DNA of 30,584 nucleotides from the IMG/VR virus record IMGVR_UViG_3300042090_000828, positions 1 to 30,584 of that record; one strand, written 5' to 3'. Source of the DNA: a virus. Below the pieces are notes generated by a model. It was not told the origin of the DNA. It worked only from the letters and a program-made list of their open reading frames with translations, and did not search any database. The position numbers were made by a program, and so were the translations under genes. Shown one piece after another: positions 1-19,149 of the stretch (the first letter of the stretch is position 1; every line of letters starts with the position of its first letter).

Positions 1-2079
1 GATCATTGCCACAAGCCCTCCAAATGGCCGCCGGTCGTCTGCCCCTGGTGCAGCGCGCGCATGTCGCCGGTTCTCGCCAAATGCAAATGGCCTGAAGTAC
101 CGAAGGGGTTCCCGGATGATTACAACCCCGTTGACGACGTGCAAACCATCATGGCCACTCGGTCATTGAAAGTTGTCGAACGCTTCTTTGGCGACGCGTT
201 CCTGACGATTTCCGGATGTGTGCGGGGGATGATCACGGCGGGGCCGGGCAAGGAGCTGATTGCGTCGGACTATAGCGCTATCGAAGCGGTCGTGACGGCG
301 ATGCTGGCCAAGTGCCAATGGCGCATAGACGCGTTCCAGGAGAAGAAGGATATCTATCTGGTCTCGTGCGCGTCGATGAACTTGGGGTTCACCTACGAAC
401 AGTACATCCAATATTACAACGACCATAACCGCTCACACCATTGGCACCGGCAGAAAAAGGGCAAGGTTTCCGAATTGGCTCTAGGCTTCGGCGGTTGGGT
501 CTCGGCTTGGTTGCAATTCGATCCGGACGGCGAAGAGAGCGAAATAAAAAAGACCATTCTCGCATGGCGCGCGGCCTCTCCGGAGATCGTGGAAATGTGG
601 GGCGGCCAAGCGCGTGGACGGCCGTGGGACCGCGATTATCATCTGGAGCGATTTGGTTTCGAAGGGGCCTTCGTTAACGCGATCCAGTATCCAAATCACG
701 TTTTCGAGAGCAACGGCATTAAATTTTACATGCGCGGTGACACGCTCATAATTCGGTTATTGAGCGGCCGAGAGCTGCCCTATGCAAGTCCGCGTCTGTG
801 GGAGAAAGAGGGGCAACCCGGCGTCTTCAACATTACGTATATGACCTGGAACACCAACCCAAAGTACGGCCCCAAGGGTTGGGTTGCCATGAAGACCTAC
901 GGCGGCCGCATCTGTGAAAATTGTATTGCAGAAGGAACGGAAGTTCTAACACAGAGAGGGTGGGTTCCTATCGAAAAAATACAAAAAGATGACCGAGTTC
1001 ATGATGGAGTTGAACTTGTAAATCATCAAGGTCTCCTCTATAAAGGAATTCAAAGTTGTATCTCAATTGATGGGGTACAGATGACTCCAGATCATGAGGT
1101 TCTGACAGATAATGGATGGGAAGTTGCATCACAAAGCCCGAGACCTTACAGACCAACGATTTGGGATGTTGGTAGCTTTATGCCCAGATTATGGGGTAAA
1201 GCGCGGACAAAAAATGGCTTGGGTTTACCGATGCGATTGTGGTCTTCTTTGTCGAAAGGTTGGGACCGACGTTACGAAAACTTACAAAACTGGAGGAACC
1301 CCAAATTGCGGTTGCCAAACCAGCGAGCAAATATCCCAGGCCAATCGAACGCATGGGTTGACATCGCACCCAATGTACGGGGTATGGAATGGCATGAAAC
1401 AAAGGTGCCATTGGCCCGAACACCCGGCGTACTCCCGCTATGGGGCGCGGGGGATTCAAGTGTGTGCACGCTGGCGAAAAAGCTTCGAAGCTTTTTGGAA
1501 AGACATGTCACCTACTTGGAAAAAAGGATTAGATTTAGATCGTCGGGACAACGAGAAAGGATATTCACCGGGGAATTGTCGATGGGTAACAAGATTGGAA
1601 AACAACCAGAACCGTCGATCTACAAAATTCGTGGAAACTCCTATGGGTCGAATGCCTTTGATGCAAGCCGCCCGAACCTACAATCTGAAAAAATCAACTA
1701 TCCATTATCGACTTTCTCATGGTTGGCCGATGGAAACAATGTTTCGGAAACCAGATGTAACCAAACGCGGGTATACGATATCGTGAACTGTGGCCCGCGA
1801 TCCCGTTTTGTGGTTCGGGGGAAGGGAGGGCCCTTTATTGTTCACAACTGCGTTCAGGCCACGGCGCACGACATCCAACGTTACGGGATCGAGAACTTAG
1901 AAGCCGCCGGCTATCCGGTCATCTTGCACGTGTACGATGAAGACGTGGGAGAGATACCAATTGGTTGGGGCAGTTTGGAAGAGTTCGAGCGCATCATGTC
2001 CACAATGCCACCGTGGGCCCACGATTGGCCGGTGAGGGCGTCGGGCGGTTGGCGCGGCCATCGGTATAGGAAGGCATAA
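1..2079 (+). CDS. Family A DNA polymerase, C-terminal part, interrupted by an intein (5' end outside window)
   Basis: The frame is open from base 1, so the gene begins upstream; the ATG at 61 is probably internal. Counting residues from that ATG, motif A is DYSAIE near 70-75, motif B is a Lys-rich stretch ending ELALGFGG near 132-145, and motif C is HVYDED near 623-628 with the metal-binding Asp-Glu. These are the polymerase palm and finger motifs of the DNA polymerase I family, so the product should replicate the phage genome. A Cys/His cluster including CPWC is encoded upstream of the ATG. Residues 288-596 are an intein; joining the flanks restores YGGRICEN-CVQATAHD, a conserved segment just before motif C. 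The TAA is 3 bases before the GTG of the methyltransferase-like gene, so the two are probably co-translated. The family call is strong; the missing N-terminus prevents judging any exonuclease domain. Confidence 0.9.
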   Translation, partial: DHCHKPSKWPPVVCPWCSARMSPVLAKCKWPEVPKGFPDDYNPVDDVQTIMATRSLKVVERFFGDAFLTISGCVRGMITAGPGKELIASDYSAIEAVVTAMLAKCQWRIDAFQEKKDIYLVSCASMNLGFTYEQYIQYYNDHNRSHHWHRQKKGKVSELALGFGGWVSAWLQFDPDGEESEIKKTILAWRAASPEIVEMWGGQARGRPWDRDYHLERFGFEGAFVNAIQYPNHVFESNGIKFYMRGDTLIIRLLSGRELPYASPRLWEKEGQPGVFNITYMTWNTNPKYGPKGWVAMKTYGGRICENCIAEGTEVLTQRGWVPIEKIQKDDRVHDGVELVNHQGLLYKGIQSCISIDGVQMTPDHEVLTDNGWEVASQSPRPYRPTIWDVGSFMPRLWGKARTKNGLGLPMRLWSSLSKGWDRRYENLQNWRNPKLRLPNQRANIPGQSNAWVDIAPNVRGMEWHETKVPLARTPGVLPLWGAGDSSVCTLAKKLRSFLERHVTYLEKRIRFRSSGQRERIFTGELSMGNKIGKQPEPSIYKIRGNSYGSNAFDASRPNLQSEKINYPLSTFSWLADGNNVSETRCNQTRVYDIVNCGPRSRFVVRGKGGPFIVHNCVQATAHDIQRYGIENLEAAGYPVILHVYDEDVGEIPIGWGSLEEFERIMSTMPPWAHDWPVRASGGWRGHRYRKA
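922..1848 (+). other. Intein in the DNA polymerase (309 codons, Cys1 to His-Asn, +1 Cys)
   Basis: The insert starts with Cys (TGT at 922) followed by IAEGTEVLTQRGWVPIEKI, a classic intein block A. Block B is TPDHEVLTDNGWE near 1084-1122, with the expected Thr and His. Block F is VYDIVNCGPRSRFVV from 1771. Block G is FIVHN ending at 1848, with Cys as the +1 extein residue. These are all the residues needed for protein self-splicing, and the splice restores a continuous polymerase. The DNA is visibly AT-richer than the flanking polymerase sequence, which suggests recent acquisition. The roughly 200-residue stretch between blocks B and F has no endonuclease motif in this frame: it is basic, low in recognisable structure, and is the out-of-frame shadow of an HNH endonuclease gene. 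The intein call is firm; splicing activity with such a linker is inferred. Confidence 0.9.
1112..1786 (+). CDS. HNH-type homing endonuclease nested out of frame inside the intein
   Basis: A 224-residue protein is encoded in the +1 frame relative to the polymerase. It has a DLTDQRFGML N-terminal element and a zinc-ribbon-like CDC...CGC (Cys41, 43, 66, 68). A central YGARGIQVCARW segment is followed by the HNH-like LDLDRRDNEKGYSPGNCRW near 140-158, and a C-terminal helix-turn-helix-like region lies near 181-210. This order is typical of complete phage homing endonucleases, which cut an unoccupied target so that repair copies the element in. The ATG lies inside intein block B and the TGA (1784-1786) inside block F. 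An in-frame TGA at 1103 precedes the ATG, so this is the first start. GAGG at 1096-1099 is a weak, rather distant ribosome site. Target site and expression are unknown; the family call is confident. Confidence 0.85.
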   Translation: MDGKLHHKARDLTDQRFGMLVALCPDYGVKRGQKMAWVYRCDCGLLCRKVGTDVTKTYKTGGTPNCGCQTSEQISQANRTHGLTSHPMYGVWNGMKQRCHWPEHPAYSRYGARGIQVCARWRKSFEAFWKDMSPTWKKGLDLDRRDNEKGYSPGNCRWVTRLENNQNRRSTKFVETPMGRMPLMQAARTYNLKKSTIHYRLSHGWPMETMFRKPDVTKRGYTIS

Positions 2080-2082
2080 CGA

Positions 2083-2598
2083 GTGGGCAAGAGAAGCAAG
2101 TTTCCACGCCGCAAGCACGACGGGTATCAGACGCCGCCAAAACCGATTTACCCGCTATTTCATTTCCTTTTGATGGAAGGGATTCGAACGTTTGCCGAAC
2201 CCTGCCTTGGGGAAGGAAAGCTAGCTGCCACGCTCATGGACGCCGGCTTTAAATGTGTTCACGTCGGAGACATTCAGACCGGCCAAGACGCTCTCACCGA
2301 TCCGAGATTGGACATTCTCGACGTAGACGCGATCATAACCAATCCGCCCTGGTCCCGTCATCTCCTGCACCCCATGATTTGGCGCTTTATCGAAATTGCC
2401 CCAACATGGCTGTTATTCGATGCGGCATGGGCTCACACCGCGCAAGCACGTCCTTTCCTTCCCTTTTGCAGTCACATAGTCAGCGTCGGCCGGGTGCGGT
2501 GGATCGATGGCACCAAATGGGGTGGCAAGGACGACGCCGCTTGGTACCGCTTTGAAATGGCGGCGGTTGGTCCACCGAAATTTTATAATCCCGCTTGA
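2083..2598 (+). CDS. DNA adenine methyltransferase-like protein
   Basis: This 171-residue protein begins with GTG three bases after the polymerase stop. It carries DGYQTPP near 13-19, an AdoMet-binding-like FAEPCLGEGKLAATL near 37-51, and the amino-methyltransferase motif IV NPPW at 87-90, preceded by a hydrophobic strand (DAIIT). This combination is typical of class I N6-adenine or amino-methyltransferases that act on DNA. The protein is short and no target-recognition domain is visible. It may be a minimal phage methyltransferase that protects the genome, or a degenerate relative. Co-translation with the polymerase is suggested by the spacing. The last codons overlap the TTGACA of the promoter downstream. 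The fold is fairly sure; substrate and activity are inferred. Confidence 0.75.
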   Translation: MGKRSKFPRRKHDGYQTPPKPIYPLFHFLLMEGIRTFAEPCLGEGKLAATLMDAGFKCVHVGDIQTGQDALTDPRLDILDVDAIITNPPWSRHLLHPMIWRFIEIAPTWLLFDAAWAHTAQARPFLPFCSHIVSVGRVRWIDGTKWGGKDDAAWYRFEMAAVGPPKFYNPA

Positions 2599-2626
2599 CA
2601 CTCCCCCAAAATGACGGTAGCGTCAT
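2595..2626 (+). promoter_or_regulatory. Promoter with overlapping palindrome (copy 1)
   Basis: TTGACA at 2595-2600 is separated by exactly 17 bases from TAGCGT at 2618-2623, a sigma70-like spacing. The -10 region lies inside a palindrome, ATGACGGTAGCGTCAT (2611-2626), with 6-bp arms around GTAG. The same layout occurs at 6031-6062. It would drive the small early genes from 2788 on. The palindrome could be an operator or part of the promoter recognition. The -35 overlaps the stop of the preceding gene. Confidence 0.7.
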
Positions 2627-2640
2627 CTTCGTAGACTTGT

Positions 2641-2681
2641 AGAGGAAACATACCTCTCGCACTTAGGAGGCCATCATGTAG
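2641..2681 (+). promoter_or_regulatory. Leader with perfect Shine-Dalgarno and an ATG-TAG start-stop
   Basis: AGGAGG (2665-2670) is followed after five bases by ATG (2676-2678) and directly by TAG (2679-2681), so a ribosome would initiate and stop at once. Upstream, AGAGG (2641-2645) can pair with CCTCT (2653-2657), while the same CCTC can instead pair with GAGG of the Shine-Dalgarno. This gives two mutually exclusive small hairpins. The site lies in the leader between promoter copy 1 and the first early gene. A regulatory role is inferred. Confidence 0.45.
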
Positions 2682-2707
2682 ATCGCAGCGCGAGGCGCGC
2701 AAAATAA

Positions 2708-2728
2708 ACGGCTTTTCGAATCAGCCGT
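2708..2728 (+). other. Small hairpin in the early leader
   Basis: ACGGCT (2708-2713) and AGCCGT (2723-2728) form a 6-bp stem with a 9-base loop containing TTCGAATC. It lies in the otherwise gene-free leader 2599-2787. There is no T-run after it, so it does not look like an intrinsic terminator. It may shape the leader RNA. Confidence 0.35.
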
Positions 2729-2787
2729 GATCTAATGAAGCTCCTGGGCAAGAGTGGAAAAGGCCCCACAACGAAAGGATATTCACA

Positions 2788-3075
2788 ATGGCACGTACCC
2801 GCCCGCTCGCGGCTCTCAAGGCTTCATCGCTTGGCCTCTTGGTCTCCATGATGAAGCTGCAACCCATCGCCCCTGTCGTCTTCAAACGCCCGCGTGGCAA
2901 GAAGCTGGCTCGTATTCTCGGCCGCACCGGTCGTGACTACCCGTTCTCCAGCAAGCGCCAATGGATGCGCAACGCTCGACAGATCGCCGCCGGCCAACTC
3001 CACATGGCTGGAGTGCCGACGTTCGAAACGGTCAAGGCCGCCAAAGCCTACGCGACCCAGTTCGATGGCGCCTGA
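2788..3075 (+). CDS. Small basic protein of unknown function
   Basis: This 95-residue protein is rich in Arg and Lys, with a KRPRGKKLARILGRTGR stretch near 33-49. No known domain is recognised. The ATG is preceded by AAGGA at a normal distance, which supports this start. It is the first gene after promoter copy 1 and leads a run of small, closely packed or overlapping early genes. A nucleic-acid-binding role would fit the charge but is only a guess. Its stop codon is overlapped by the start of the next tiny gene. Confidence 0.7.
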   Translation: MARTRPLAALKASSLGLLVSMMKLQPIAPVVFKRPRGKKLARILGRTGRDYPFSSKRQWMRNARQIAAGQLHMAGVPTFETVKAAKAYATQFDGA

Positions 3076-14753: not shown

Positions 14754-15199
14754 TACTCTGCCTCCCCATAAAGCATGACGATTCCCCAGTCTTCAGCCAC
14801 GTCAATTTGTTCGAACCCAAGCCGCGTCGCGAAGCGTACCGAAGGCTCATCGTTCTTCAAAACGGTCGTTATCAAGCTGCGTTTCACTTGCATGATTTCC
14901 GAAATTTGGGCGCGTGCTTCACGCATCACTTTAACGGGATAATGCGTCGCCTCTTCGGAAAGAGCAAGCCAGATGTATCCAACCGGAGAAAGCAGGGAAC
15001 CAGTCACACCACCGAGACCGGCAAGACGGCCGTCAATTATCCACGCCCGGCAAAAATACGAATCATCAAAGCACGCCCTAAGCTGCTTATGGGCGTTGAG
15101 CCCGAGTTTCATAAAAGCGTCGTTGTGATCAATGCGGAGCCGGCGGATAATCTTCCCGCAATGATACGGCTTGCCCGGTTCGAGACAAAACGTTGTCAC
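14753..15199 (-). CDS. GNAT-like protein in the internal-core cassette (gp13-like position)
   Basis: This 148-residue protein starts with GTG in a GTGA overlap with the tail-nozzle gene. It has a beta-alpha layout with YFCRAWIIDGRLAGLGGV, and near the end NDEPSVRFATRLGFEQI, which matches the acetyl-CoA-binding and C-terminal part of the GNAT acetyltransferase fold. Podoviruses often carry such proteins at the T7 gp13 position, where they may serve in assembly rather than as active enzymes. Activity and substrate are not shown here. The fold call is moderate. Confidence 0.65.
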   Translation of the reverse strand: MTTFCLEPGKPYHCGKIIRRLRIDHNDAFMKLGLNAHKQLRACFDDSYFCRAWIIDGRLAGLGGVTGSLLSPVGYIWLALSEEATHYPVKVMREARAQISEIMQVKRSLITTVLKNDEPSVRFATRLGFEQIDVAEDWGIVMLYGEAE

Positions 15200-18100
15200 T
15201 GTTGGCCCCCTTGTTGCTGGCGTGGTGCAGCCTGAGTTTCAGGAGTATCCCCAACAAAGACTTCTGGAATGAATGCCAACACATTCATTGGCAATGGAAC
15301 ATCCTGCTCCATAGCACATTGACCGGCCGTTTGATATCCGCCGAATACCGGAATGCGTATATCTCCGGTGAAGAGAGGGGTCGTCGGGCTGTTATACGGC
15401 TTACGAGCCCGGAGATTGGTCACAGGGGCCGCCGTCATCTGCTGCCATTTGGCGTTGATTTTCATCGGGGTAAACAACGATCCATCTGGTTGATTGGAAC
15501 CGATGGTCATTCCTGCGGAAGCTTCGACACGCGCAGTAATGGCGGCATTTTTTTTACGTTCTCCTTGCACGGTCGGTTGTCCAACGTCAAGATAAACGCT
15601 CTGGAGCTGGACTTTGAAACCGAGGCCGATAGTCACGAATGAGGCGGGGGTGTCAAGCGTAATGGAACCCGTGGCAGATACCGCGCGTGGTGTAATGACG
15701 TTGCCATCAGCCAACCCGGTTACCGTCATTCCAGCCAAATGGGTGAGTCCGGTGATGACTGTCGTTGGGGTGGTCATCGTCCAATTTCCCGCCGTCTGAG
15801 GCTGTGGCACTTCATCATCGTCCCAAAAGACCGAAACAATCGGTGTCGTGATGTTGGCGACGACTTGGGTAAAGCTGACGTACTGGGTGATCGTGGCCAC
15901 GCCGCCGCCCATGCGGATGACCGAGCCAACATTAGTTGGGGCAAAAATCGGAGCAGTCGCGGTGAAGGTAGCGGAATTGTCCAATGTCAAAGTAGCGCTC
16001 GCCCCAGTGCCTGAATTGGTGGGGTCCGCGATAACAAGGGCCGGATAGGTATATCCCGAGCCCGGATTGAGGATATTCACCGCAACAACGACACCCGCGC
16101 TGTTCAGTGTTACGCTCGCCGTCGCCCCCGAGCCGGGTCCAGTGCCATTGTCATCAACAACCGTTGCTGTGGTATGAGTAGAGTATCCGGTACCCCCCAC
16201 CAGACTGGAGACGCCAGAGATCGCACCCAAGCCGGTGGCTGACGAAGCGGTTATTGTGGCATTAGGTGTCCCTTGTGGATATTGTAGACCACAATCAACG
16301 CACCAAGGCTGTTCCGGCGAATTCCATAGACGATCATCCATGCGCTCGATTGTATAGGCTCGGCCAGCGGTGAGATAACGCTCCACACCGACGTAAAGCG
16401 CGTCAACCGGCAATTCGGTAACTGAGCATAGTGTACGGAAAAAACCTCGCGTATCATGTCGAGCCCAGCCGGCCACCTGTTGCGGTTTGTTGAAGGTTAG
16501 GCTCAACAGGACGCCGTCGTTACGCACCGACCACATGATTTTGAAGGGTTCTTCACACCAAGCGTGCTCGCGTGTTGTATAGCTTGTAAAGAGCTGGGGG
16601 GAATTCTGCGTAAGGTCTTCACCGGTGTAGATGTTGGTGAAGAAGTTATAGGACAGGTCTCGATAGATCGAGCCTTTGGCCTGAACATAAAGGATATCAT
16701 AATCGATCTTGATGGGCGGCACGGTCGAAGAACAACCGTTATACGCTTGCGGCTGAGCTTGCTGATTGCTCGGGGTGATCGGTTGGGGGTTCAGCGACGA
16801 ACCACCAACGCCAGTCAACTGCCATGCAGACAGACCGGTGAGAACAACGAGACCGCCGGGCATGGAAACCATGAACTGGATACCGTTGACTTCAACAGAC
16901 CATGGCGTACCGGTGATGGCGTCGGAGGCAATCGTGGGGATGCGTGAATCGAAGTTTTTGAACGCGCCCGGTTGACTCATCCAATAAGTGTCCGGGTTAT
17001 TCAACGAATTTGCGTAAACCCGTCGTTCTTGGAAGTACGCGGGCACAGACGGATAAGTCCCCGTTTGGGGGCCTACGTTAAGAGTCGCCGTCGCTCCCGA
17101 GCCATCTCCCGAGATCGACACGGTATCGCCCGGCGCATAGTTCTCCCCGCCGTCTTGCACAATGATGGCGCCCAGAGGTCCAGGTGCGACGTTATTATTT
17201 CCACCGGATCCGGGTGTAAGAGTGGTATTGACCACAACGGAAAGAACCGCCCCCGATCCTGTCGATGTGGTTATGTTTGCCGTTGCCGTCGTATAGTTCA
17301 CGCCACCGTTGGTGATATACGCCGAGAGAATTTGACCGCGTGCAAATGGATTGGAGTGGATCGGGGGGACTTGGGTAAAGTCGGCAGTGATATTGTTATC
17401 TACAAAGCGGGTGCCAAATACCGTACCAGCATATCCGAAAAGAGCCCCGGCAGGAATTGGGGAGCCGAATGATGGCGTGGCTTTATAAACTCGATATTCT
17501 GTCACGGTGGGTACTTGAGTCCAGGTCAAAGTGACCGATCCGGCTTGACCCGCGATATTCACGCCTTGAACGGTGCCAATGTTGGATGCGATACTTTCGG
17601 TGCCGTCGTTGGGGTCCACCGCCGTCACAACATAGCTGTAATACACTGCCCCCAGTCCACTAATAACCCCGCTGAAAATGGTGGGGGGAGAAATAGAAGG
17701 TTGGGCAATTACAGATGAAAAATTCCAATTACTGTCCGTGACCCGCGTTAGGTCTTGGGGGGCATATTCTGTTTGGGTCTGTTGGTTGACGCAGCACAAA
17801 CTCATCACGTCAGCCGATTGGGTAAATTTTAAGTATTCAAGGTCATTCTCGCTATAGATCGTGGGCAATGTATAAATACGAGAGGCCGCACCTCCCGAGA
17901 TATACGCTGGATATCCTGTCGAGTTTATGGGGTTTCCGTACACATCGTAAAGCGCATATGTTGTCGGAGTTAATTGCTGGACAACGACGGTTTCCCCATT
18001 GAACGGGGTCATGCCATTAAGGTTCGCCAATTCCACCCAATCACCACTATTGAAAGGTGCTGCCGTGGTGGTCGTAACATTGAATTGAACACCGTAACCA

Positions 18101-19149
18101 AAGCCAGAGGTGGAAGCTTGTTGAACGGGATTGGCTGGAAAAGCGGTATAATTGCCGGGGTTCGTGACCACAACAACATTCGGGGCCAAAATAGAAAAAT
18201 GAAATGTGGCGCTGCTACCCGTTCCCGAGGTGGATAATTGGGTAAATTCGCCAGATACCGGGTTAGATGTAAAAACGCCGGCATTTGTGACTGTGTTTTG
18301 CAAAACCCCCATTTTGATATTGAGCGTTGCACCAGTGAGACCCCCGCCTGTTACGGGCTCCGCCGTCAACAGCGTAGGATTGACGGTATAGTTCCCCCCA
18401 AAGGTTATCCCATTAACGGCCGTGATGGCGCCACTGGCAATTGTGACTGTTGCCTGAAAAGGTGTGCCGGTGCCGGTGGTACCGAGGACTGTCGCAGTCC
18501 CGTTCACACCCCCCGTGCCCGCCGAAGCAACGGTTGCGCTGACGACCTGAGTTGAAGCGACCGTGACCACAGCGGGAGTGGTTTGGACACCGCCCGCCAG
18601 ATGGATGGTGTCGCCCGGCACATAGCCCACACCGGGAGCGTACCCCTGCGTCAACAAAAGCAAGGTATTGGTAACAGTGACGACCATGGGGGATGAGAAA
18701 GTACCACCAGCAAGCGTTACAGTATCTCCAGGGGCGTATGAATTCGAAATCCCCGAATCGATCGGTGTTGCCGTCGAACCCGCCGATGCGGTTACTGTGG
18801 TCATGATCGCCGGATTGGCTTGGGAAATATTTGTAATGTCAATGGAGCTGTCAACTACGAACGCGCCGTTGGCGACCACACGCATGTAGTTGTTGCCAAA
18901 TTCAAGAGCGAGCCCTTGATTAATATTAAATTGAAAAGTTATAAGGCGCGGAGGCGCATTACGGCCGGTTTGTTTGGAGAACCCGGTAAATGCCGTGCCA
19001 GCGCGCGAATAGCCGCCGCCTCGATACCCCACGAACATATTGCGCATGGTGGAAGCAGCGGTGTGAAACCGCGCCAAGTCCACATGACCGAAAATGCTTG
19101 GTCCGACTTCACCGCTCGTAAAGCTGGTTTGGATTGCGGGTACAGCCAT
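15196..19149 (-). CDS. Tail nozzle / tubular protein B-like, with large beta-repeat insertions
   Basis: The N-terminus (IQTSFTSGEVGPSIFGHVDL, then MRNMFVGYRGGGYSRAGTAF) is the signature of podovirus tail tubular B or stabilisation proteins, which form the tail nozzle. At 1317 residues it is much longer than T7 gp12 (about 800). The extra length includes several GxxYxPGDTVxLxGG elements (SYAPGDTVTLAGG, GYVPGDTIHLAGG, NYAPGDTVSISGD) and PGSGYTYPALVI-type elements. It also includes a fibronectin-III-like stretch (YYSYVVTAVDPNDGTESIAS). Such insertions usually lie on the virion surface and may bind sugars. It follows three adaptor-like genes in the operon. Confidence 0.8.
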   Translation of the reverse strand: MAVPAIQTSFTSGEVGPSIFGHVDLARFHTAASTMRNMFVGYRGGGYSRAGTAFTGFSKQTGRNAPPRLITFQFNINQGLALEFGNNYMRVVANGAFVVDSSIDITNISQANPAIMTTVTASAGSTATPIDSGISNSYAPGDTVTLAGGTFSSPMVVTVTNTLLLLTQGYAPGVGYVPGDTIHLAGGVQTTPAVVTVASTQVVSATVASAGTGGVNGTATVLGTTGTGTPFQATVTIASGAITAVNGITFGGNYTVNPTLLTAEPVTGGGLTGATLNIKMGVLQNTVTNAGVFTSNPVSGEFTQLSTSGTGSSATFHFSILAPNVVVVTNPGNYTAFPANPVQQASTSGFGYGVQFNVTTTTAAPFNSGDWVELANLNGMTPFNGETVVVQQLTPTTYALYDVYGNPINSTGYPAYISGGAASRIYTLPTIYSENDLEYLKFTQSADVMSLCCVNQQTQTEYAPQDLTRVTDSNWNFSSVIAQPSISPPTIFSGVISGLGAVYYSYVVTAVDPNDGTESIASNIGTVQGVNIAGQAGSVTLTWTQVPTVTEYRVYKATPSFGSPIPAGALFGYAGTVFGTRFVDNNITADFTQVPPIHSNPFARGQILSAYITNGGVNYTTATANITTSTGSGAVLSVVVNTTLTPGSGGNNNVAPGPLGAIIVQDGGENYAPGDTVSISGDGSGATATLNVGPQTGTYPSVPAYFQERRVYANSLNNPDTYWMSQPGAFKNFDSRIPTIASDAITGTPWSVEVNGIQFMVSMPGGLVVLTGLSAWQLTGVGGSSLNPQPITPSNQQAQPQAYNGCSSTVPPIKIDYDILYVQAKGSIYRDLSYNFFTNIYTGEDLTQNSPQLFTSYTTREHAWCEEPFKIMWSVRNDGVLLSLTFNKPQQVAGWARHDTRGFFRTLCSVTELPVDALYVGVERYLTAGRAYTIERMDDRLWNSPEQPWCVDCGLQYPQGTPNATITASSATGLGAISGVSSLVGGTGYSTHTTATVVDDNGTGPGSGATASVTLNSAGVVVAVNILNPGSGYTYPALVIADPTNSGTGASATLTLDNSATFTATAPIFAPTNVGSVIRMGGGVATITQYVSFTQVVANITTPIVSVFWDDDEVPQPQTAGNWTMTTPTTVITGLTHLAGMTVTGLADGNVITPRAVSATGSITLDTPASFVTIGLGFKVQLQSVYLDVGQPTVQGERKKNAAITARVEASAGMTIGSNQPDGSLFTPMKINAKWQQMTAAPVTNLRARKPYNSPTTPLFTGDIRIPVFGGYQTAGQCAMEQDVPLPMNVLAFIPEVFVGDTPETQAAPRQQQGGQQ

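Follow-up and report, generated by a model that had tools for sequence, protein, structure and literature searches.

A phage DNA polymerase intein predicted to be mobile, with its homing endonuclease overprinted in a second reading frame

At the left end of a 30.6-kb stretch of viral DNA (IMG/VR virus record IMGVR_UViG_3300042090_000828, positions 1 to 30,584, whose full 30,584 nucleotides we call the window), a phage family-A DNA polymerase is encoded in a frame without any stop across 1-2079. We find that this gene very probably carries a mobile intein written on one strand in two frames, with a splicing intein read in the polymerase frame and a separate homing endonuclease (HEN) overprinted on it; homing, splicing, and HEN synthesis are all predicted. 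We also lean toward the broader view that this element represents a class of phage inteins, widespread and so far unrecognized, whose HEN is without exception overprinted out of frame and takes its ribosome-binding site and start codon from conserved splicing-domain codons, and that this class may offer a natural route from continuous to split inteins without a chromosomal break. The locus is organized as follows.

1 to 921, plus strand: N-extein of the family-A DNA polymerase (PHROG 10285/17, E values of 6.5e-39 and 1.9e-35), its 5' end lost at the contig edge
922 to 1848, plus strand: intein in the polymerase frame, from CIAEGTEVLT to FIVHN and then C
922 to 1161, plus strand: N-terminal Hint part (intein residues 1-80), with C1, block A (CIAEGTEVLT), and block B (T55-x-x-H58)
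1096 to 1099, plus strand: Shine-Dalgarno (SD)-like GAGG for the HEN, formed by intein codons around H58-E59-V60, 12 nt ahead of the ATG
1103 to 1105, plus strand: TGA within block B codons L61-T62, the upstream stop of the HEN frame
1112 to 1786, plus strand: HNH-type HEN of 224 residues in the +1 frame, with an alternative start at TTG 1124 and its TGA stop at 1784-1786
1162 to 1761, plus strand: intein linker (residues 81-280) in the polymerase frame, read as a shadow translation of the HEN and predicted to be disordered
1762 to 1848, plus strand: C-terminal Hint part, with block F (VYDIVNCGPRSRFVV) and block G (FIVHN, with penultimate His and terminal Asn)
1849 to 2079, plus strand: C-extein of the DNA polymerase, from Cys+1 (PHROG 7766 DNA polymerase, residues 610-691, E value of 6.1e-30)

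These coordinates and residues bear out a first-pass annotation made from the sequence alone, which had placed an intein with intact blocks A, B, F, and G at 922-1848 and an HNH-type HEN at 1112-1786 in the +1 frame between blocks B and F, with its ATG in block B and its TGA in block F. The first base of the ATG is the second of intein codon 64, where block B ends; the TGA lies within the V288-N289 codons of block F; and the HEN fills the entire linker. The same annotation had the polymerase frame open across an overlap of about 600 bases; the frame is indeed open, but the length was put slightly low, since all 675 nt of the HEN overlap it. The insertion point falls within the conserved polymerase motif EN/CxQAxAxD (here and below, a slash marks the insertion point). 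In tblastn searches, the N-extein matches Shewanella phage SFCi1 and other phage polymerases, and insert-free phage polymerases align as two pieces flanking the intein.

The polymerase frame encodes an intact class 1-type intein, for which protein splicing is predicted. The class 1 residues C1, T55, H58, H308, N309, and C310 are all present, block B (GVQMTPDHEVLTDN, G51-N64) showing the T55xxH58 pattern. C1, T55, H58, D286, G291, N309, and C310 are invariant in 50 relatives, with V307 and H308 nearly so. In an AlphaFold2 model of the intein, the Hint ends have a predicted local distance difference test score (pLDDT) of about 97 (96-98 in the first eight 10-residue blocks, 96-97 in the C-terminal part), and the leading PDB matches of these modeled ends are inteins or other Hint-type domains, the best being the Mtu RecA mini-intein (probability 1.0, E value of 4.5e-3). 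The linker has pLDDT values mostly of 42-50, rising up to 66 around a single, weakly predicted helix at residues 182-199. This helix is the shadow of a conserved HEN motif (the SFExFWxDM region), with a few nearly invariant columns nearby, and is probably a by-product of that motif.

The HEN matches the phage HNH endonuclease families PHROG 374 (E value of 4.5e-51) and PHROG 3377 (E value of 1.1e-50), a profile search matched it to I-HmuI (1u3e, E value of 0.006), and the AlphaFold2 model of its frame has a mean pLDDT of 90.9. Around residue 144, the family has Asp-Arg where I-HmuI has Asp-His, while the downstream Asn and Trp are kept. Since the Arg replaces the catalytic His of I-HmuI, we file the HEN as HNH-related rather than as a proven HNH nuclease. 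A group I intron or other RNA element was rejected as the content of the insertion, with no Rfam match in 1-3000 up to an E value of 1 and no room between blocks B and F.

The out-of-frame placement recurs in relatives, as found by the database search that the first-pass annotation had proposed. The HENs of SFCi1 (53% identical), the APSE phages, and Caulobacter phages including RW are also in +1 (tblastn). Although a scan of viral contigs with the window HEN as a single protein gave no match, an alignment-based profile scan of IMG/VR did find relatives, about 40 further loci, all in +1 and none in frame, and two bacterial contigs, from Alicyclobacillus, carry the +1 form (genome contigs scanned with the HEN alignment). 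A splicing-domain survey, queried with the first 71 residues of that domain and so avoiding retrieval by the HEN, covered 80 viral inteins, in which the HEN is in +1 in 49, in +2 in 24, and in frame in none. No HEN was recognized in the other 7, one of which is cut off by the contig end; the survey includes the mini-inteins L174, L228, L233, L235, L240, and L247. The layout is thus common and conserved (73 of 80 inteins) and exists also in +2, which goes beyond what the window alone had suggested.

That the window merely masks an ordinary in-frame HEN behind a pair of sequencing or assembly indels was worth considering, since such errors are, a priori, frequent in single metagenome contigs. 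No result here supports it, and we regard it as already refuted, because the same frame relation is present in the isolates SFCi1, APSE-1, and RW, in Jersey-type phages, and in many contigs, because none of 73 HENs is in frame, and because an in-frame HEN would place its own stop in the polymerase. A single-base error and relatives with an in-frame HEN, the outcomes named beforehand as fatal to the reading, were both sought and neither was found. On logical grounds, the same stop would account for the missing in-frame class: the HEN ends in its own stop codon, as do its free-standing kin, and placed in frame it would truncate the polymerase, so that only +1 and +2 placements with a stop-free shadow would survive and be tolerated; by shuffling, the shadow is expected to be open in about 1-2% of cases for a HEN of this make-up.

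Most of the +2 class occupies a different polymerase site, in the motif B region (GKA/CELGLG and similar); among its members are Pseudomonas phage MR14, Vibrio phage 97.13, EBPR siphovirus 2, and the Jersey-type Salmonella phages. In the tree, it forms a single group (support 85), beside which stands a small +1 pair (L172_1095 and L203); L097_489, which the filter marked as +1 at a contig edge, was left out of the count of origins. This grouping indicates that out-of-frame placement probably arose more than once. The +1 insertion points vary by 9-12 bp within one polymerase motif (YGGK/CVENxCQA, GGKL/CENxxQA, and EN/CxQA; window 898-922, L002, L003, L030, L033, and others). Some polymerase genes carry two inteins, the motif B site being occupied by a +2 form and a site near CENxxQA by a +1 form (L015, L187, L218, and L026/L206). 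The same intein-HEN unit is also present in phage helicases, where it occupies more than one site, as well as in a Holliday junction resolvase-like gene and in one unidentified gene (L226, L038, L039, L048, L055, L227, L194, L236, L195, and L204).

Chance poorly accounts for the doubly open frames. The polymerase frame of the window has no stops, as against a mean of 10.2 when synonymous codons of the HEN are permuted with its protein and codon usage kept, and none of 500 such shuffles is open. Likewise, there are no host-frame stops in 55 nonredundant +1 loci (5.95 expected) or in 19 nonredundant +2 loci (3.42 expected). Related HENs labeled free-standing have on average 12.7 stops in the would-be +1 host frame; their shadow is open in 8 of 87. 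On inspection, six of these eight are inteins missed by the motif filter and one is only 96 codons long; the eighth, L157, is open in its +2 shadow, like 61% of its own shuffles.

The way in which substitutions are distributed switches within the overlap. Across 14 independent +1 pairs, host codon position 3 takes 46% of the differences in the extein, 55% in the N-terminal Hint part, and 54% in the C-terminal Hint part. In the overlap of the same pairs, 51% of differences are at host position 1, equivalent to HEN position 3, and the resulting HEN pattern of 27/22/51% is that of free-standing relatives. In the overlap of the Salmonella phages S10 and Ent1, 18 of 33 differences are at HEN position 3, with 10 amino acid changes in the HEN vs. 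25 in the linker. As judged from these codon-position patterns, both the HEN and the splicing ends are under purifying selection and the linker is the shadow. Selection on the linker as a protein in its own right was considered and rejected, since substitutions fall as in free-standing HENs, with no signal beyond stop avoidance. Together with the disorder predicted in the model, the switch in periodicity upholds the first-pass proposal that the linker is the shadow translation of the HEN: the linker appears to be a fast-diverging, passive shadow kept open only by stop avoidance.

The same data bear on whether the HEN frame is a relic, with function kept by the intein alone (or by the HEN alone) and the open frames left over from a recent insertion. 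Relatives with a damaged HEN in an intact intein frame do exist: in L026 the HEN is reduced to 52 residues from stop to stop, in L182 a stop lies inside the HEN match, and L170 and L192 have large deletions. Against such decay in general, however, both frames are open in the 55 and 19 nonredundant loci, even where HEN identity falls to about 40%, and changes in the HEN are spread over codon positions as in a gene under purifying selection; we consider this explanation improbable. The broken HENs and the mini-inteins would be consistent with the usual cycle of homing, in which gain is followed by decay and loss.

How the HEN might be made is suggested by its start signals. In 58 +1 loci, the best start lies near or just past the end of block B, and an SD-like duplex of -5 kcal/mol or lower is found in 97%, compared to 37% for the matched controls; the corresponding figures for 29 +2 loci are 100% and 72%. 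Most +2 loci have the HEN start and SD within conserved WDGxEWV codons. In the window, the GAGG at 1096-1099 has an anti-SD duplex energy of -6.3 kcal/mol. The HEN could alternatively be produced by programmed ribosomal frameshifting, as a polymerase-N-intein-HEN fusion without a start of its own, which would suit two frames overlapping on one mRNA and need no internal initiation. Yet a HEN-frame stop lies in or just before block B in most +1 loci, including the window, which leaves little room for a shift (about 3-13 codons), and a start codon with an SD is present in nearly all loci, so we give frameshifting little credence. In the window, the TGA at 1103-1105 rules out a HEN fusion starting further upstream.

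Evidence for mobility comes from the Jersey-type phages, where the intein is present in 163 records and the downstream extein in 374. Phages PST-H1 and TUMS_E15 have exact empty sites, GKA/CELGLG, in polymerase genes 92% identical to the intein-bearing gene. Such coexistence of intein-bearing and empty alleles in exteins about 92% identical is as expected of a mobile element. For the window element, homing is inferred from these kin. The G+C content of the intein region (901-1800) is about 0.43-0.53 vs. about 0.54-0.60 in the flanking polymerase, as expected for a transferred element. Ent1-type phages also have a second, ordinary intein in a helicase, annotated with a LAGLIDADG endonuclease (L250:4054-5097), which offers a control within one genome.

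A continuous intein with an independently translated HEN in another frame, its linker a shadow, is the account that fits every test applied to sequences and models, because neither frame has stops, periodicity switches in the overlap, the linker is predicted to be disordered, and the HEN has its own start and an SD-like site. The ribosome would read polymerase, intein, and polymerase as one chain, from which the intein would splice itself out, its long disordered loop being a mere by-product of the HEN gene. Internal initiation at ATG 1112, aided by the GAGG at 1096-1099, would yield a separate 26-kDa HEN, which would cleave intein-free polymerase genes, and repair would copy the whole unit in.

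Several points weigh against this account. Splicing, HEN translation, and cleavage are all predictions from sequences and models. The window SD spacing of 12 nt is longer than usual. A Foldseek search of the HEN model against the PDB gave no convincing match, and the nuclease chemistry of the family is uncertain and may be unlike that of classic HNH enzymes. No empty-site relative of the window polymerase closer than about 47% was found, and presence/absence polymorphism of the intein is seen in sequences of Jersey-type relatives only, not of the window phage, of which no near-identical relative was found either. Finally, the count of 0 in-frame HENs among 73 HEN-bearing inteins comes from a survey seeded with out-of-frame members, in which in-frame cousins beyond this splicing-domain family may be undersampled.

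Two relatives, L211 and L241, are split inteins of the window intein family, in which a separate HEN gene lies between the two halves. In L211, a stop closes the N-intein behind residue 84. The HEN, with an SD of its own, starts at an ATG that overlaps this N-intein end, and the C-intein ATG overlaps the HEN stop with the original frame kept, the intervening shadow having five stops; L241 has a similar layout but with a frame change. Both (L211:4001-5185 and L241:4001-5192, in phage polymerases) are candidate new trans-splicing inteins. They group with the main +1 group in the tree, their position within it being unresolved, which leaves the direction between cis and split forms unsettled. The first-pass suggestion of an intermediate between the two gains support from these split relatives, but no direction from the tree. 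Cis-to-split appears likelier than split-to-cis, because stops gather easily and the removal of many is hard: once a start codon arose ahead of block F, the shadow could gather stops, giving a split intein with the HEN as middle gene, as in L211 and L241.

In full-length inteins, such as PI-SceI, the HEN is a same-frame domain of the precursor. The window element resembles them in its Hint fold, its blocks A, B, F, and G, the HEN between B and F, and predicted homing, but its HEN would be a separate protein from another frame and its linker is without a domain. Dassa et al. reportedly described in 2009 "fractured genes," in which split inteins have a free-standing HEN between their halves. Only L211 and L241 have that layout; the window and most relatives differ in having one host chain fully overlapped by the HEN. 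By sequence, the window element is an intein that lacks both the in-frame HEN of full-length inteins and the broken host of split ones. The phrase "fractured genes" occurs in PMC3229294 and PMC6801210.

The first-pass annotation knew of no described example. We found no published report of an intein with an out-of-frame endonuclease, most subscription papers lying outside the literature searched, but a partial analog had been missed. In the ShiLan domain/Pacc40 insertion, an HNH endonuclease lies out of frame in a phage methylase (Arsenault, Gosselin, and Gogarten 2025, PMC11855218). The likeness extends to a host frame open through the insertion, a patchy homing-like distribution, and the question of HEN translation (PMC11855218). 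ShiLan, however, has no Hint domain and no splicing, and its loop stays in the methylase (PMC11855218), whereas in the window family a complete splicing domain brackets the HEN, there is an SD-like site, the hosts are polymerases and helicases, and an entire intein family is in two frames.

Parts of the layout had been seen earlier in GenBank but not connected. In APSE P45/P46, the layout is again +1, 9 bp upstream of the site used in the window; the APSE-1 entry (NC_000935) places P46, labeled an HNH endonuclease, inside P45 and covers only the later part of the HEN, and we found no paper discussing the P45/P46 overlap. The Jersey-type Salmonella phages (vB_SenS-Ent1 gp37) have the same kind of element but in +2, at a different insertion site and with a different HEN branch, and the Ent1 polymerase intein is annotated in GenBank as "encoding splicing domains" only, with no endonuclease.

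Elsewhere in the window, a methyltransferase-like gene (PHROG 799, 2083-2598) lies immediately downstream of the polymerase, and the minus strand encodes a 1,317-residue tail protein (15196-19149) that matches a 712-position family end to end and has about 600 extra Gly- and Thr-rich residues, in which no intein blocks were found.

Inteins are taught as existing in three states, with an in-frame endonuclease, with the endonuclease lost, or split around it. The out-of-frame HEN would be a fourth state, common in phages, including well-studied Salmonella phages (more than 100). It points to a way in which a free-standing HEN gene, stop codon included, may invade an intein without killing the host protein, and it implies that the splicing domain would tolerate a 200-residue disordered loop. 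Long overlapping genes gain a new set of examples, and the question of how split inteins originate can be put to the test within one family.
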